NCBI RefSeq assembly: GCF_003012935.1
Contig: NZ_PUDR01000001.1
Location: 138,182 to 202,181 of the forward strand
Source: Pannonibacter carbonis
GTDB taxonomy: Bacteria; Pseudomonadota; Alphaproteobacteria; Rhizobiales; Stappiaceae
Direction of reading: 5' to 3'
Length of the DNA stretch: 64,000 nt
In this document: in pieces, positions 1-25,027 of the stretch
Position numbering within the stretch: the stretch's first letter is position 1
Layout of the letters: every line of letters begins with the position of its first letter
The notes under the pieces: generated by a model
What the model was told of the DNA's origin: nothing
Database searches by the model: none
Seen by the model: the letters and a program-made list of their open reading frames with translations, nothing else
Translations under genes and position numbers: made by a program

Positions 1-446
1 TTCTTCGAGCATTCGCGGCCCTCGTAGAGGGTCGGATACCAATAGAGATTATCGCGCCTCTCGAAGACCGGCAGTACGGCCTTGCGGCTGGCCGAGGTGT
101 AGGAGCCGAACACCGACACGCACTTGTCGCCGACGACAAGCTTGCGGGCCTTTTCGGCAAAGGTAGCCGGATCGGACGCCGGATCCTCGACGATCGGCAC
201 GATCTTCATGCCGTTAATGCCGCCAGCCGCGTTGATCTCCTCGATCGCCAGCAGCGTCGCCTTGTTGAGCGACTCCTCGATGATGCCCGTCGTACCGGTC
301 AGCGAGAACAGGACACCCACCTTGATCTCGCCATTGGCGGCGCGCGCCAGCGACATGTTCTTGTTCCAGATGTGCGGGAACCCGGTCGCGGCAAAGGCGC
401 CGGTGGCGGCAATGCCTTTCAGGAAACTGCGTCTTTTCATGGTCAT
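1..446 (-). CDS. Amide/urea ABC transporter substrate-binding protein (5' part only)
   Basis: This is the first 148 codons of a periplasmic binding protein; the rest lies beyond the left edge. It begins with a twin-arginine type signal ([11 protein letters not shown]) followed by a small-residue stretch. The mature part reads [15 protein letters not shown], then [11 protein letters not shown] and PTLYEG, as in the urea/short-chain amide binding proteins (UrtA, FmdD type) and in AmiC, its paralog encoded at 1438-2580. The start at 446 follows GGAGGG by four bases; ATG 440 is an alternative. It lies downstream of amiC-amiR on the same strand, so amide-inducible import of urea, formamide or a short aliphatic amide is likely. 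The exact substrate cannot be read from the sequence. Confidence 0.88.
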
Positions 447-469: not shown

Positions 470-513
470 AAAAGCCCCGCGCTGACCGCCTTGCAGGCGG
501 ACGGCGTCGAGGC
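470..513 (-). terminator. Second terminator-like hairpin in the binding-protein leader
   Basis: On the minus strand an outer stem (CGAGGC/GCCCCG region, 513-508 with 479-474, one G-U pair) encloses a strong inner hairpin, CCGCC-loop-GGCGG (500-486), and is followed by TTTT. It ends about 12 bases before the GGAGGG of the binding-protein gene, so it could attenuate transcription or mask the ribosome binding site. It is read from sequence only. Confidence 0.45.
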
Positions 514-592
514 TCCCTTGCCATCGCTTTTTTGTGGGCGGACAACGCCGCGGACATGCAGGACCGAGTTCTGACGACACAGGTTCGTCAAA

Positions 593-671
593 ATAAAAAA
601 CCCCGCAAACCGACCCTGAAGGTCAATTGCGGGGCACTGATGCCTGCATTTCGGGACGGCCTCGTTGCCAT
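593..671 (-). promoter_or_regulatory. Candidate ANTAR (AmiR) antitermination leader before the binding-protein gene
   Basis: Reading the minus strand, a first hairpin has stem ATGGC/GCCGT and hexaloop AACGAG (671-656), with A at loop position 1 and G at position 4, as known for ANTAR targets. After 11 bases comes GGC-ATCAGT-GCC (644-633), whose 3' side runs into an intrinsic terminator: CCCCGCAA (634-627) pairs with TTGCGGGG (608-601), with an inner GACC/GGTC stem, then TTTTTTATTTT. The second loop has A1 but G at position 5, so the match is incomplete. It sits between amiR and the gene AmiR would be expected to control. The terminator is clear; the antitermination reading is inference. Confidence 0.6.
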
Positions 672-702
672 CCGCCGAGCGTTTCTTACGCTCGATTAAA
701 TG

Positions 703-1419
703 TTAACCAAGCAATTCCTGCGAGTCAACAATTGCATTGGCGATTGCGCCGATGGAAACACGTTTCGACATCGCCTGACGACGCAGAAACTGATAGGCAT
801 CCTCTTCGCTCATGCCTTTGCGATGCATGATGATGGATTTGGCCCGCTCGACGCTGCGCATGTTCCGCAGGTTCTCGTCCAGCTTGTCGATCCGTCCGCG
901 CAGCCGCTGTTCATAGCGGAAATGATCGCGGGCCAGGGCCAGCGTGCATTGCAGGGTCAGGGGATCGGCCGGCAGAACCAGAACACCATGGGCGGCCGTG
1001 TCCCGCAGCAGGTCCGGCCGGAACGGCGCATTCTTTGGCAGGAGAGCGACGAGCGCAGACTCCGGTTCTCCCGGCAACCAGGGCACGCGGGTCGGCAGAT
1101 CCTCGACCAGATCGCACAGCAGCATGTCGTATCCGGTCGGCAAGGTCGCCGGAACCGGCCAGACATGCTGCGGCCGGGCCCGCAGCTTCTGCAATTCACG
1201 GATCAGGGCATCGCCCTCACCGGTCCGCTCGGTTATGACGCCGATGCTGACATCGGCAAATGGAAATGTCGTCTGTCCAGGACGGGCGACCGGACGCCCC
1301 TGGGGCACCGGTGCCGCAACGCGTGATGAGGACAGCGACAGCAGACTGCGCCGTCCGCGTCCATCCCCGTCTGTCAGGCTCGGTCCCCTGTCAAAGCCAT
1401 TAGTCGGTCTCATGCTCAT
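703..1419 (-). CDS. amiR: ANTAR-domain transcription antitermination regulator, AmiR-like
   Basis: A 238-residue cytoplasmic RNA-binding regulator. The C-terminal 70 or so residues form an ANTAR domain: a long helix (RSVERAKSIIMHRKGMSEEDAYQ region, around 190-215) followed by FLRRQAMSKRVSIGAIANAIV. The N-terminal part resembles the pseudo-receiver of AmiR/NasT. In Pseudomonas, AmiR is held inactive by AmiC and is released by amides to bind leader RNA and prevent termination. Here amiC lies 18 bases upstream on the same strand, so the pair is intact. Likely targets are the two attenuator-like leaders at 593-671 and 5479-5560. The start at 1419 has only a weak AAGAGCGG upstream; ATG 1413 is possible. 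Confidence 0.88.
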   Translation of the reverse strand: MSMRPTNGFDRGPSLTDGDGRGRRSLLSLSSSRVAAPVPQGRPVARPGQTTFPFADVSIGVITERTGEGDALIRELQKLRARPQHVWPVPATLPTGYDMLLCDLVEDLPTRVPWLPGEPESALVALLPKNAPFRPDLLRDTAAHGVLVLPADPLTLQCTLALARDHFRYEQRLRGRIDKLDENLRNMRSVERAKSIIMHRKGMSEEDAYQFLRRQAMSKRVSIGAIANAIVDSQELLG

Positions 1420-1437: not shown

Positions 1438-2580
1438 TCAAGCATAGGCAAGGTTCCGCGCGTAGCCGATCAGGTAGGGATCAGCCTTCACCCGGGTTGG
1501 AGATTCGTAGACAAGATCAAACTGGCCTTGCCGGTTCGCCTTGCCGATCCGGGTCCACAAGTCCGTGTGACCGCAGACAGGATTGACGGAAATGTTGCCC
1601 TGCGGGGCGTCATATTCCGAGCCCATCACGGTGTTGCGCAGGACCTCGGTGTCCAGCGAGTTGGTCTCGGCCAGCGTCTTTGCAAAGACGTGCACCTGAA
1701 AATAGGCTGCCTCCAGACACATGTTGGTCGACTGGTCCTCGCCATAGCGCTTCTTGTAGAGCTGGACGAAGGAGGAGTTCCTGGCGCCATCGATCCCCTG
1801 AAAATAGGGGGCCGCAGTGATGTGGCCTTCACCGACGTCGAAGCCCATGGCCTGGATCTCCGCTTCCGTCGTGGTCAGGCTGGCGATGGGCATGATCTTC
1901 GGATCAAAGCCCATGTCATGGTACGTCTGATACAGGAAAATCGTGCTGTCGCCGACGACGGTCGAGAAGATCACATCCGGCTGGGCGGCCTTCACCTCGC
2001 GCAGCAGCGGCTGGAACTCTGACCGGTCCGCAGACAGGCGCACATAGCGCTCGCCAACCACTTCGCCGCCGCTGTTGGCCACCAGCTCGCGCATGATGCG
2101 GTTGCTCTCGCGCGGATAGACATAGTCCGAGCCAATGAAGAAAAAACGCCGGCCATACATGTCCATCAGCAGGCGGCACAGCTCGACACTGTTCTGGTTG
2201 GGCGCGGCGCCCGTGTAGATCACGTTCGGCGAGAACTCGAAGCCCTCGTACAGCGTCGGATACCACAAGAGGCCGTTCAGCCGCTCGACCACCGGAAGCA
2301 CCGCCCGGCGGCTGGAGGACGTATAGCACCCGAACATGGTGGTGACGCCGTCCTCGATCATCAGTTTCTTGGCGCAACGGCCAAAGGCGCGGGCTTCGGA
2401 GCCCGGGTCATAGATCACCGGTTCGATCGGACGGCCATTGATGCCGCCGGCTGCGTTGATTTCGTCGATGGCCGTCAGCGTGCCGCGCAGCTGCGTTTCC
2501 TCGATGACGGCCATGAAACCGCTCTGGGAAAACAACACCCCGACGCGCCATGGGGCGGACGTCTGTTCAGATCCTCTCAC
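1438..2580 (-). CDS. amiC: Amide sensor and negative regulator AmiC
   Basis: A periplasmic-binding-protein fold used as a cytoplasmic sensor. It sequesters AmiR until an amide binds. It matches Pseudomonas AmiC along its length: VGVLFSQSG, GGINGRPIE, GCYTSSSRRAVLPVVER, YPTLYEGFE, PNQNSVEL, IGSDYVYPRESN, VFSTVVG and IASLTTTEAE. The open frame extends to 2793, but that extension looks non-coding and no signal peptide is present. I prefer GTG 2580, which gives 380 residues (AmiC is about 385) and sits six bases after GAGGGG; ATG 2625 (with AGGG) and ATG 2646 are alternatives. It is followed 18 bases later by amiR. It is paralogous to the transporter binding protein at 1-446, but it lacks the export signal seen there. 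Confidence 0.88.
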   Translation of the reverse strand: MRGSEQTSAPWRVGVLFSQSGFMAVIEETQLRGTLTAIDEINAAGGINGRPIEPVIYDPGSEARAFGRCAKKLMIEDGVTTMFGCYTSSSRRAVLPVVERLNGLLWYPTLYEGFEFSPNVIYTGAAPNQNSVELCRLLMDMYGRRFFFIGSDYVYPRESNRIMRELVANSGGEVVGERYVRLSADRSEFQPLLREVKAAQPDVIFSTVVGDSTIFLYQTYHDMGFDPKIMPIASLTTTEAEIQAMGFDVGEGHITAAPYFQGIDGARNSSFVQLYKKRYGEDQSTNMCLEAAYFQVHVFAKTLAETNSLDTEVLRNTVMGSEYDAPQGNISVNPVCGHTDLWTRIGKANRQGQFDLVYESPTRVKADPYLIGYARNLAYA

Positions 2581-2857
2581 CTCGATCCCCTCGTCTGCTG
2601 GTCCTGCCTTGCTTCGCCAAGTCATCCAAGCCCTGCGCTGCCGCATCTGGCCAACGCCCCGCGACTGACTGGCCATTGCAAAGCCAGTTTCGTCGTCACT
2701 TCGCCTGATCCCCGGCGAGGATGACAGCCGGAACGAAAGACGCTGAACCAGCAGAACAAGTCCTGCCAGCTTGCGACCTTGCGCAGGCGTCAATGGCGGA
2801 TCAGGACCGCCAGATCAGCGATGTCTGAGACATTACGCGCACTCTATTCCCCTCAAC

Positions 2858-2886
2858 GCCCTTTGTTGGGCACCCGTTTTTCGGGT
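2858..2886. other. Two tandem hairpins in the gap upstream of amiC
   Basis: GCCC-TTTGTT-GGGC (2858-2871) is directly followed by ACCCG-TTTTT-CGGGT (2872-2886) and TGTTTTTTATT on the plus strand. On the minus strand, the direction of amiC, there is no T-tract. The remainder of the 2581-2953 gap shows nothing else I can name beyond the hairpin at 2914-2938 and possible amiC promoter sequence. Confidence 0.4.
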
Positions 2887-2913
2887 TGTTTTTTATTCCA
2901 GCTGCCGCAAACT

Positions 2914-2953: not shown

Positions 2954-3976
2954 TCACGAATTGAGCAGCTCTTTCAGCTTTTCGTCAAGGAACTTTACAT
3001 CGACCGGGCTGGTTCCCGGCCCGCCGGCAAAATGCCCCCAGACGGATTCAAACACGATCAGCTTGGCATTGGGCATATGCGCCACCTCGAACTCGCTGTC
3101 TTCCGGCGGGAAGTAGAGATCGGTCCGGCTTGGCATGACGAACGCCTTGGCCTTGATTGCCCCGAGCGCCTTGCGGAAATCGCCGTTGTAAAGCTCGTTG
3201 TCGCTGATGTCGCCATTCTGCCAGGTCCACAGCATGGTGAGCAGGTTGTTGGCATCCTTCGGCAGGAAGAAGCCTTCCCAGAAGGCAACGAGGAAGTCTT
3301 CCAGTGAGGAATAGCCCAGCGCCTTCAGATCAAGTTCCTGGCGATAGAATGCCTGCGAGAAGCCCCAGCCGGCATAGACGCGCGCCATGGCGCGCAGGCC
3401 CCTTTCCGGTTTCTTGTCGCCGTACCAGCCGTTGTTGAAGGCCGCATCTGCGGTGAGTGCGGCCTTGACGCCTTCCAGGAACACGAAATTATGCCGCGAG
3501 CACTTGGCCGAGCCGCAGAACGGCGCGATCCGCTCCACCATGTCGGGATACATCGCGCCCCAGTGGAACGTCTGCAGCGCCCCCATCGACCAGCCTGTCA
3601 CCAGCGGCAGCTTGGTAATACCGAAATGCTCTGTCACCAGCTGGTGCTGGGCGCGCACGTTGTCATAGGCGGTGATCTGCGGAAACCGCGACGCGTTGTA
3701 AGGTTCCGGCGTGTTACTTGGCGAGGATGACAGGCCGTTGCCGAGCATGTTGGGAATGATGATGAAATACTTGTCCGGATCGAGCGCCATGCCCTTGCCG
3801 ATCAGCCATTCGTTGTCGGGATGCTGGCCCGAATACCAGGTCGGATAGACGATGGCATTGTCCTTGGCCGGCGACAGCGTGCCGAAGGTCTTGTAGGCGA
3901 GCTTGGCGCCCCGCAAGGTCGCCCCCCGCTGCAGGCGGAAATCTCCCAGATCGTACAGCTTGTAATCGACGCTCAT
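2954..3976 (-). CDS. Alpha/beta hydrolase of the MetX (homoserine acetyltransferase-like) family
   Basis: A 340-residue cytoplasmic alpha/beta-fold enzyme. Early motifs LAYKTFGTL and YPTWYSGQH, the nucleophile elbow GWSMGALQ (Ser near residue 138), the late PSRTDLYFPPEDSE segment carrying the acid, and VWGHFAGGPG carrying the catalytic His are as in the homoserine O-acetyltransferase superfamily. Methionine-gene neighbours are absent; instead it sits between an NCS1 permease and amiCR. I infer a hydrolase or acyltransferase acting on an imported amide or pyrimidine-related compound, not methionine synthesis. The open frame runs to 4216, but ATG 3976 (MSVDYKLYDLG) is preceded by AAAGGGGA and starts the homologous region. 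Spacing to the permease stop is 74 bases. Confidence 0.78.
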   Translation of the reverse strand: MSVDYKLYDLGDFRLQRGATLRGAKLAYKTFGTLSPAKDNAIVYPTWYSGQHPDNEWLIGKGMALDPDKYFIIIPNMLGNGLSSSPSNTPEPYNASRFPQITAYDNVRAQHQLVTEHFGITKLPLVTGWSMGALQTFHWGAMYPDMVERIAPFCGSAKCSRHNFVFLEGVKAALTADAAFNNGWYGDKKPERGLRAMARVYAGWGFSQAFYRQELDLKALGYSSLEDFLVAFWEGFFLPKDANNLLTMLWTWQNGDISDNELYNGDFRKALGAIKAKAFVMPSRTDLYFPPEDSEFEVAHMPNAKLIVFESVWGHFAGGPGTSPVDVKFLDEKLKELLNS

Positions 3977-4050: not shown

Positions 4051-5370
4051 TCAGGCCGAAGCTTTCTGCGCGGCACTTGCCTGGCCGATCACCGCGTAGG
4101 CGATGCCGCCGGCAAGACCGGCGCAGATCGCGGTCGACAGATACGGCGCGTAGAACTCGACAACGAAGGCCACCAGCGAGCCGATGATCCAGGCGAGGAA
4201 CGCCTGACCGCGCCAATCCTGGTCGATCACCGCCGGGCGGCGCAGGACATACTGGTCAACGATGATGATGGCACCGATCGGCGGCACCAGAATGCCAAGC
4301 AGCGACAGCCATTCGATGAAGAAGGCCCAGACGTTGCCGGCGGCGACCACGATGCCGATGATGCCAAGCACCACGGCCATGATGCGCATATGGCTCGACA
4401 GGATGCGCGACCAGCCCGTCGCCGCATTGTAGAGGCAGTGGGCGCAGACCGAGCCGAGGTTGCAGTAGAGGAACAGGAAGGCCAGCACGCTCAGGAAGCC
4501 GATCTGCTTGGCATTCATGTAACCGAACATGTTGTCGGCCCCGAACGGATTGGCATCCGGCACGGCAAGCGCGGCCGTCGTCACGCCGCCCACCAGCATC
4601 GCTACAAGGTTGGCGAAGGGGAAGGCACTGAAGGTTGCGACCAGCGAACTCTTGCTGTCGGCGGCCCAGCGGTTGAAGTCGGCCGTCACCGTGCCTGCAT
4701 CGATGAAGAGCGCGATCACGACCGTGAGGCCGACACCCATCGACATCGTCGCCACGCCATTGTTGCCAGCGTAAGCGTAGATCGCATCCCAGCTCGTCGT
4801 CGATGCCGCGTCGAACATCACGTAAAGGCCGAGGATGATGAAGGCAGGCACCGACACGAGGCCGATGGCATGCAATCCGCGTACCCCGACGAAGGTGATG
4901 CCGATGTAGAGCACGCCGGCCAGCACCGTCATCATCACGTAGTTGAGTTCATAGGCGGTGCTGATCAGCGCGCCGGTGATCCCGGTCTGCACGGCATACC
5001 AGCCGAGCAGCAGCGTCGACAAAAGGCCCGACGCCAGCACATATCCCTTGCGGCCGAAGACGACACTGGCCATCAGCGCGAAATTGAAACCGGTCTTGGT
5101 CCCAAGCAGCCCCAACAGCCCGACATAGACCAGCATGATGAGATTGCCGACGATCATCGCCGTCAGCGCATTGGCAAATCCCATGCCCAGCACCAGCAAC
5201 GAGCCCGTCATGGCCCCGGTGATGATCATCGGAAACCCGATCCACACCGTGGTGACCGAGAACATGCTGCGCCGCGCCGCCATGGGCACTGCGGTGTGTT
5301 CGTATTCCGCTCCGAGCACGTGGTCGACTTCGCTTTCCACGGCTTCCACATTCTGCGTCAGTTTTGACAT
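4051..5370 (-). CDS. NCS1-family cytosine/purine permease-like transporter
   Basis: A 439-residue integral membrane protein with about 12 hydrophobic segments, similar to CodB-type NCS1 sodium or proton symporters for nucleobases, allantoin and hydantoins. The N-terminal VPMAARRSMFSVTTVWIGFP is the typical NCS1 opening, and the GFNFALMASVVFGRKG and FNRWAADSKSS segments fit the family. The start at ATG 5370 (MSKLTQN) follows GAGGGGA by five bases; a longer frame to 5403 lacks support. It heads a minus-strand unit with the hydrolase and lies upstream of amiCR. Its own leader carries a terminator overlapped by a possible ANTAR hairpin pair, suggesting control by AmiR. The substrate is unknown; a small nitrogen compound such as an amide or pyrimidine is plausible. 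Confidence 0.83.
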   Translation of the reverse strand: MSKLTQNVEAVESEVDHVLGAEYEHTAVPMAARRSMFSVTTVWIGFPMIITGAMTGSLLVLGMGFANALTAMIVGNLIMLVYVGLLGLLGTKTGFNFALMASVVFGRKGYVLASGLLSTLLLGWYAVQTGITGALISTAYELNYVMMTVLAGVLYIGITFVGVRGLHAIGLVSVPAFIILGLYVMFDAASTTSWDAIYAYAGNNGVATMSMGVGLTVVIALFIDAGTVTADFNRWAADSKSSLVATFSAFPFANLVAMLVGGVTTAALAVPDANPFGADNMFGYMNAKQIGFLSVLAFLFLYCNLGSVCAHCLYNAATGWSRILSSHMRIMAVVLGIIGIVVAAGNVWAFFIEWLSLLGILVPPIGAIIIVDQYVLRRPAVIDQDWRGQAFLAWIIGSLVAFVVEFYAPYLSTAICAGLAGGIAYAVIGQASAAQKASA

Positions 5371-5478: not shown

Positions 5479-5560
5479 GCAAAAAGGCCTCCGCATGGCT
5501 CCGTAGAAGGAGACATGAGGAGGCCTTTTTGCCTGCGTTTTCGTCCGGCGCCGGTGCCGG
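5479..5560 (-). promoter_or_regulatory. Candidate ANTAR antitermination leader of the NCS1 permease gene
   Basis: Reading the minus strand, hairpin one is CCGGC-ACCGGC-GCCGG (5560-5545), with A1 and G4 in a six-base loop. Exactly ten bases later comes AGGC-AAAAAG-GCCT (5534-5521). The second hairpin lies inside the 5' arm of a strong intrinsic terminator: GCAAAAAGGCCTCC (5532-5519) pairs perfectly over 14 bases with 5492-5479 and ends in TTTTTGC. Forming the second hairpin would prevent the terminator, the arrangement known for ANTAR leaders. The second loop lacks G4. The terminator is bidirectional, with T-runs on both strands. Confidence 0.6.
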
Positions 5561-5588
5561 GGCCCGGTATTTATCCGGACAAGCAATA

Positions 5589-5617
5589 ACGATAATGCGC
5601 GGCTGCCCCGGTGTCAA
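5589..5617 (-). promoter_or_regulatory. Sigma-70-type promoter for the NCS1 permease leader
   Basis: On the minus strand a perfect -35 TTGACA (5617-5612) is followed after 17 bases by TATCGT (5594-5589). Transcription would start near 5582, just upstream of the two leader hairpins and the terminator, consistent with an attenuated leader of about 210 bases. Confidence 0.55.
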
Positions 5618-22075: not shown

Positions 22076-22094
22076 CCCGCCCGGTTTGGTTCAA

Positions 22095-22292
22095 GGGATG
22101 ATGGCAGGTCTCCTGACTTGCGGGTCACAGCGCCCCTGTCCCTTCCCGGCCGTTCAGGCCAGTGGTTCTGACAGGTTTGCTCGCCGCCTACAGTTGCGGG
22201 GGCAGTCCCGGAGTTGGCAGATGCTCACATCCGCCGCACCGGATTCCCTTTTCATCCTCCCGTCGCCAGTCGGCGGCGGAAGGAACCATCTT
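22095..22292 (-). ncRNA. Cobalamin riboswitch
   Basis: On the minus strand the leader has the conserved cobalamin-riboswitch parts in order: a GGTTCCTTCC opening, GATGAAAAGGGAA, GGACTGCCCCCGCAACTGTA around 22210-22188, and the closing TGACCCGCAAGTCAGGAGACC at 22124-22104 read in parts. It ends about 20 bases before the downstream frame and 40 before the strong AGGAGG-ATG. It represses its gene when adenosylcobalamin or a similar cobamide is plentiful. Confidence 0.95.
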
Positions 22293-22361
22293 GGACAAGG
22301 CTAGACCAGCGCCCCGCTCATGGCAACCGCTGCCAAAGGCGGATACACAACCTGCCGGGGA

Positions 22362-24708: not shown

Positions 24709-25027
24709 GGGAAATCCGTTCAGATGATCGGGGCATCACTGGCGGAAAACCGGCCAGTTCAAACTGTATGGATGCGGGATCACGTGAATTGTCCGGCGGA
24801 TCGGCGGCCGGAAGAGCCACCCGGAATTGCACCGGGTCCTGATGACTTATGGGATTTTACCTAACCCGGCAGACGCTGCAGCGCAACATCACAAGCGCGC
24901 AAATTGAGACAAGATCGGCTGGGCATCAGATTCTCTCCCACCTTCAGCTACTGCATGCATACATCTTGTCTGCAGCCGTCCACGGCGTGGGGAAGGGCGG
25001 CATTTGGGTTGCTCCAGCACGGCCTTT

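Follow-up and report, generated by a model that had tools for sequence, protein, structure and literature searches.

The leader that precedes an NCS1-family permease gene in Pannonibacter carbonis is very probably an ANTAR-type antiterminator through which AmiR controls the permease and the neighbouring hydrolase gene, with a second leader of the same kind gating an ABC transporter and the amidase gene amiE. The layout of the leader, covariation among relatives, reciprocal covariance models, gene-order counts and co-occurrence with AmiR together make AmiR control, and hence membership of the permease in the amide regulon, very probable; AmiR binding and antitermination we infer from the same comparisons. 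Such control had been proposed in a preliminary description of the 64-kb stretch of DNA analysed here (64,000 nucleotides, hereafter the window), and it is supported by conservation of the leader, by the position of its promoter and by models of the two leader types that recognise each other.

Direct reading of the minus strand found every element of the preliminary description in its place, namely a promoter, a first hairpin (P1), ten bases, and a second hairpin (P2) inside the 5′ arm of a 14-bp terminator (Table 1). The promoter hexamers TTGACA (5617-5612) and TATCGT (5594-5589), 17 nt apart, were also recovered by a consensus scan (10/12 matches) as one of four promoter-like sites in 5.4 kb, where shuffles gave 1.0. 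Both hairpins have six-base loops, on stems of 5 and 4 bp where a dual-hexaloop leader has at least 3 bp, and the 10-nt linker between them (5544-5535) falls within the range of ~5-12 nt reported for eut leaders. Loop 1 (ACCGGC) has adenine in position 1 and guanine in position 4 (A1 and G4); loop 2 (AAAAAG) has A1 and is without G4. The terminator stem is perfect over 14 bp, GCAAAAAGGCCTCC at 5532-5519 pairing with GGAGGCCTTTTTGC at 5492-5479, and ends ~110 nt upstream of the permease ATG (5370); as P2 (5534-5521) overlaps the arm at 5532-5519, P2 and the terminator are mutually exclusive. Folding of the 126-nt leader gave a z-score of -5.49, and none of 200 shuffles was equally stable. The P1 arm of this leader has an alternative partner in an upstream GUCCGG, the competing stem taking up 21% of the ensemble, and P1 is absent from the minimum-energy fold (-19.5 kcal/mol), the fold with both P0 and P1 (-18.9 kcal/mol) lying 0.6 kcal/mol above it. 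Since 5-bp hexaloops with A1 and G4 have a background of ~0.08 per 140 nt in the window, P1 alone is weak evidence, and the case rests on the combination of elements and on comparison.

On the minus strand the order is permease, hydrolase, AmiC-like sensor, AmiR, an intergenic leader and the gene for a binding protein (SBP), and the run from permease to amiR is presumed to be co-transcribed. The permease scores below the cut-off of the NCBIfam cytosine permease model. AmiR has the AmiR_N and ANTAR domains of its family and adjoins the AmiC-like sensor; the distance of 2.6 kb previously given for it holds from the permease stop, that from the leader being ~4.1 kb. SBP and the AmiC-like sensor are 46-48% identical in most loci, and in L004 (loci and their genomes carry L numbers) the SBP gene is followed by ABC transporter genes and then by the aliphatic amidase gene amiE (AmiE 721 bits, cut-off 427; UrtC above cut-off, the remaining ABC genes named by eye). 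The intergenic leader consists of P1 (GGATGGC-AACGAG-GCCGTCC), nine bases, P2 (GGC-ATCAGT-GCC) and a terminator, and is where an AmiR target would be expected, between amiR and the SBP gene. Its loop 2 is without G4, like that of the permease leader of the same genome. The same amiR-SBP leader is present in the closely related Pannonibacter sp. SL95 (L011), the permease of which is 99% identical. The fold of the possible tandem unit at 510-554 is unremarkable (z 0.03); two tandem units are seemingly present also in SBP leaders of Mesorhizobium, Nitratireductor and Shinella.

Elsewhere in the window, two short hairpins precede amiC at 2850-2890 (minus strand), CCCG-AAAAA-CGGG and GCCC-AACAAA-GGGC; no U-run accompanies them there, and the first is terminator-like on the plus strand. 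A cobalamin riboswitch (22086-22305, minus strand, 132 bits) and a match to the sul1 RNA family (24787-24842, minus strand, 76 bits) were also recorded.

Table 1. Features of the permease leader and of the gene run behind it, by window position. R1 is the covariance model trained on permease leaders (see text).
Feature	Position	Strand	Basis or remark
Promoter TTGACA-17-TATCGT	5589..5617	(-)	Direct read and consensus scan; similar in aligned leaders
P0, upstream hairpin GUCCGG-AUAAAUA-CCGGGC	5562..5580	(-)	Optional, lineage-dependent
P1, hexaloop hairpin CCGGC-ACCGGC-GCCGG, loop with A1 and G4, 5 bp	5545..5560	(-)	Direct read
P2, hexaloop hairpin AGGC-AAAAAG-GCCT, 4 bp, A1 but A4 for G4	5521..5534	(-)	Overlaps terminator 5′ arm
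Intrinsic terminator, 14-bp outer stem, more inner pairs, U-run	5479..5532	(-)	Direct read and folding
NCS1-family permease (CodB-like)	4051..5370	(-)	Pfam PF02133; PDB 7qoa cytosine permease, E 1.3e-31
Alpha/beta hydrolase, PRK07581 family	2954..3976	(-)	NF005757, 568 bits, cut-off 332
AmiC-like sensor, Peripla_BP_5, start codon uncertain	1438..2793	(-)	Domain search
AmiR, AmiR_N and ANTAR	703..1419	(-)	PF21332 41.3 bits, PF03861 58.5 bits, both above cut-off; PDB 1qo0 AmiR, E 4.6e-13
Promoter-like TTGACT-17-TAACAT, over the amiR end, before the amiR-SBP leader	700..728	(-)	Consensus scan
amiR-SBP leader: P1, P2, terminator, U-run	595..673	(-)	Hairpin and terminator search; R1 match 632-674, 26.1 bits
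Weak candidate for a tandem second leader, ahead of the SBP gene	510..554	(-)	R1 15.5 bits, E 0.019 in 5.3 kb
SBP gene start, binding protein related to the AmiC-like sensor	1..446	(-)	Runs out of the window

Among relatives, an untrained search for the layout alone (a P1 hexaloop followed by a P2 hexaloop within a terminator arm) was positive for 19 of 83 permease leaders and for none of 249 dinucleotide shuffles, and loop 1 had A1 and G4 in 15 of the 19. This figure was obtained with a relaxed terminator finder, chosen so that terminators with a paired U-run would count, and excludes L017, L032, L039 and L079, which were found with a stricter finder and lost with the relaxed one. For alignment, 24 permease leaders were selected by eye, leaving out the near-identical L007, L011, L012 and L048 and leaders without visible hairpins; L036, L067 and the Rhodobacteraceae, recognised only later, also stand outside the 24 rows. 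In this alignment 98% of cells pair vs 25-50% when slid, and double-change cells number 29 vs 7.3 in shuffles (0/500 with as many) and 1 to 8 in slid versions. Two of five covariation measures were less decisive, the number of pairs with a double change (4; 91/500 shuffles) and of pair types (12; 11/500). Because the rows were chosen for their hairpins the alignment leans towards structure; the test with reciprocal models, below, leans less. Double changes occur in three P1 pairs and one P2 pair, the other three of the four P2 pairs being invariant, so the covariation that the first account had proposed as a check was borne out mainly for P1.

Across the same 24 leaders, loop 1 has A1 in 23 and G4 in 21, and loop 2 has A1 in 17, G4 in eight and A4 in 16. 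Linkers are of 7-16 nt, exceeding 12 nt in four leaders (L017, L020, L053 and L073). A TTGACA-like promoter with 17-nt spacing that ends 20-30 nt before P1 was found in 14/24 leaders vs 28/4800 shuffles; its position, rather than mapping, predicts a start upstream of P1, and not the start downstream of the hairpins that had been named as fatal to the proposal. P0 was rejected as a constant component of the motif: the hairpin at its position is unusually stable in 13/24 permease leaders but in 4/20 SBP leaders, so P0 is optional.

Two covariance models were compared, R1 trained only on permease leaders (the 24-row alignment) and R2 trained only on 16 amiR-SBP leaders, the alignment of which itself covaries (16 double-change cells vs 5.3, 0/500; 71/500 and 70/500 on two of the five measures). 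Over the window, R1 scored the permease leader at 40.5 bits (in training) and the amiR-SBP leader at 26.1 bits (outside training), the next match reaching 16.8; R2 scored the amiR-SBP leader at 36.9 bits (in training via L011) and the permease leader at 22.6 bits (outside training), the next reaching 13.9. The suggested scan with a covariance model thus came out the same way from both sides, each model, built from one leader type, ranking the same two window leaders first and second. Over the whole 4.78-Mb genome, the SBP leader came second with R1 (E 0.18; 150 of 4275 first-look candidates scored) and the permease leader third with R2 (E 0.105; 150 of 7647 scored). These E-values are rough and singly modest; the strength of the result is that both models single out the same two sites in one operon. 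R1 scores of L006, L007 and L008 were 40.5, 39.7 and 38.3 bits. About a dozen R2 matches of at least 16 bits lie at neither leader type (e.g. in L037, 23.0 bits), and the ORFs around eight other R1 matches in the genome itself (L091-L098) included no obvious nitrogen gene.

A family search found the permease in 5/87 genomes, the present one included. A search for permease loci, with the best 80 of 86 matches retained, yielded a set of 78, which was examined for gene order. The hydrolase accompanies the permease in 73 of the 78 (it was not found in L029, L044, L064, L084 and L088). Where the permease stands directly behind amiE (29/78 loci), the leader is present in 0/29; among the other 49 loci, R1 scored at least 22 bits in 25, of which 20 are training rows (p 5e-7), and 17-22 bits in a further three (L067, 21.3 bits; L076; and L072, 17.6 bits), a match of 17 bits being absent in 21. 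R2, with no permease leader in its training, scored at least 16 bits in 20/49 vs 0/29 (p 2e-5), these counts being of loci and not of independent events, with a large share of the 29 coming from Bradyrhizobium. Of the 21 R1-negative loci, ten belong to Rhodobacteraceae (family assigned from the genus name), and in seven of the ten (L013, L016, L018, L022, L027, L030 and L085) an AACG/AATG hexaloop was seen by eye before a terminator, with a second loop that departs from the model. In the Rhodobacteraceae leaders L016, L027 and L085, the second loop looks seven-membered (e.g. GGC-AATGAAA-GCC), with A1 and G4. The leaders of L072, L075, L076 and L077, mostly betaproteobacterial, seem to carry in P1 a recurrent C-C mismatch below the hexaloop.

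A downstream amiR on the same strand within 5 kb was found at 12 permease loci, and the leader is present in 11 of them, the miss being L021, with an amiR 34% identical; conservation of the leader in relatives that keep amiC-amiR and the permease, on which the preliminary description had staked its proposal, therefore holds with this one exception. An R2 match of 21.5 bits lies in L021 (12639-12679) directly downstream of the divergent amiR, and its permease leader gave no match. In L067 a leader-like match lies between amiR and the permease. Five loci (L031, L037, L041, L059 and L064) have the order amiC-amiR-amiE-permease, amiR and amiE lying 0.2-0.7 kb apart, the hydrolase next in four, and amiR-like proteins that are 30-33% identical. 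The finder reported no dual hexaloops between amiR and amiE in 11 loci; a terminator was seen there by eye in L031, L041 and L064.

ANTAR proteins were surveyed in 22 genomes, mostly without amiR beside the permease. An AmiR_N protein is present in 13/13 genomes with a leader of at least 22 bits (that of L029 scores below the curated cut-off) vs 3/9 others (Fisher p 0.001), and L072, with its weak leader (17.6 bits), is a counter-example, no ANTAR protein having been found in that genome. In L003 (G000 C31), a third ANTAR protein adjoins another AmiC-like sensor and seemingly peptide-type ABC permeases. The Pannonibacter genome encodes three ANTAR proteins, and NasT likewise acts via leader hairpins of nitrogen genes (PMC6759348), so the leader might be an ANTAR antiterminator bound by a protein other than AmiR, either NasT-like or the third. 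This is improbable, because six other genomes with the leader each yielded a single ANTAR protein, of AmiR type (L020, L029, L036, L038, L042 and L044; four are MAGs, L029 and L036 not being so labelled, which makes the absence of others less than certain), the best match of the permease leader in the window is the amiR-SBP leader, and permease and amiR stand in one gene run.

An ordinary terminator, either ending an upstream transcript or acting as a constitutive attenuator, with the hexaloops as by-products of GC-rich sequence, would suit a fold that the terminator dominates, the alternative pairing of P1, and the placing of P2 inside the terminator arm, itself enough to hold much sequence constant. 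It is very improbable in view of the layout (0/249 shuffles), of P1, which lies outside the terminator, covaries and keeps A1 (23/24) and G4 (21/24), of the promoter-like site just upstream in 14/24 leaders, and of the 0/29 leaders at permease genes behind amiE. Terminator leaders of transporters are often riboswitches, but the chance that this terminator answers to a ligand-binding riboswitch, or to another RNA-binding protein, is slight indeed, since no Rfam family matched the leader at gathering score (a permissive search gave six matches far below cut-offs, the best, ctRNA_p42d, having E 0.05 and 20.1 bits vs 50), what is seen to be conserved amounts to two small hairpins, with no larger aptamer, and the leader co-occurs with AmiR.

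Against AmiR-controlled antitermination stands loop 2, which is without G4 in the window and in 16/24 aligned leaders. The preliminary description had named this as its weak point; the departure is real, and is common to most aligned relatives and to the amiR-SBP leader of the same genome. As G4 in loop 2 is a defining feature, the leader is a variant of the dual-hexaloop leader, though one that very probably works as such. G4 of loop 2 matters in EutV (PMC3369931), where Arg142, Lys149, Glu160 and Tyr164 contact G4 (PMC8934654). In an alignment read by hand, with a +2 offset in numbering that matches all eleven named EutV residues, the window AmiR keeps Lys, Glu and Tyr and has Met for Arg142. 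The AmiRs of Bradyrhizobium, with A4 loops, have the same residues at the contact positions as the window AmiR, and the clade of L038, L042, L044 and L047 has His for Tyr164, yet G4 loops. A switch of AmiR residues as the explanation of A4 loops was set aside, none being seen at the contact positions compared. In Bradyrhizobium SBP leaders (L040, L045, L087 and others), both loops are off-rule (GACAGC/GAGAGC and AACAAA, with A at position 4), and Lys149, Glu160 and Tyr164 are unchanged in the AmiR of those loci.

Antitermination by AmiR would proceed along the lines laid out for ANTAR proteins in PMC3369931 and PMC8934654. By default the nascent RNA would fold the terminator and transcription would halt ahead of the permease; binding of its amide by the AmiC-like sensor would release AmiR, which would dock on the P1 hexaloop and hold P2. 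Because P2 uses the 5′ arm of the terminator, polymerase is proposed to read on into permease, hydrolase, amiC and amiR, after which the second such leader would gate the ABC transporter and amiE. Tentatively, and with rather less than even confidence, AmiR may here work with one canonical hexaloop, P1 (A1, G4) serving to recruit and P2, freed from the G4 rule, being degenerate ([AG]AAAAG or similar), so that the roles of the two loops separate; at the same level of confidence, the NCS1 permease, mostly with the PRK07581 hydrolase, may be an undescribed module for uptake and processing of short-chain amides, able to replace the amide ABC transporter. Natural leaders that break the A1/G4 rule in loop 2 offer a direct test of the idea that an ANTAR dimer visits hexaloops successively (PMC8934654).

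Short-chain amides are a natural guess for the permease cargo. Apart from the 29 loci with amiE in front of the permease, the permease-hydrolase pair adjoins an AmiF-type formamidase in two Thiomicrorhabdus genomes, with no leader there, and in Guyparkeria its neighbours are AmiE on one side and an FmdA formamidase on the other. Among the genes listed as raised in Mycobacterium smegmatis when nitrogen is limiting are those of a cytosine permease (msmeg_3402) and a formamidase (msmeg_3403), whose locus numbers are consecutive (PMC4617892). The leader offers a clue to what is carried by a CodB-like NCS1 subfamily, for which annotation would give cytosine permease, and its recurrence in some two dozen related genomes, before a transporter that keeps company with amide-degrading genes, suggests that bacteria use an NCS1 transporter, controlled by an amide sensor, for amide nitrogen. 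If AmiR control is true, a transporter class is added to the amide regulon, and R1 and R2 together provide a means of seeking AmiR regulons where Rfam matched no family at the permease leader.

A covariance search of 2012 had urea, nitrate and ammonium transporters among its matches (PMC3369931); no paper on AmiR control of an NCS1 permease was among the matches listed by literature searches, and the supplementary tables of that paper may hold an NCS1 match. The closest known system, the amiE leader of Pseudomonas aeruginosa with AmiC-AmiR (PMC3369931), has the same AmiC-like sensor, AmiR, and a pair of hexaloop mini-hairpins of which the second sits at the foot of an intrinsic terminator; here, however, the genes behind the leader are those of an NCS1 permease and an alpha/beta hydrolase, an ABC transporter and amiE would be under a second leader, and loop 2 is without G4. 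The eut leaders of Enterococcus faecalis are alike in their dual hairpins, in P2 lying inside the terminator and in a linker within 5-12 nt, but EutV is a phospho-receiver protein and both loops of the eut leaders carry A1 and G4 (PMC3369931, PMC8934654). The NasT leaders of Bradyrhizobium belong to this class of RNA switch and likewise serve nitrogen genes (PMC6759348), whereas their sensor and ligand are others, and NasT would be unneeded for the permease leader in those genomes that yielded no ANTAR protein besides an AmiR-type one.
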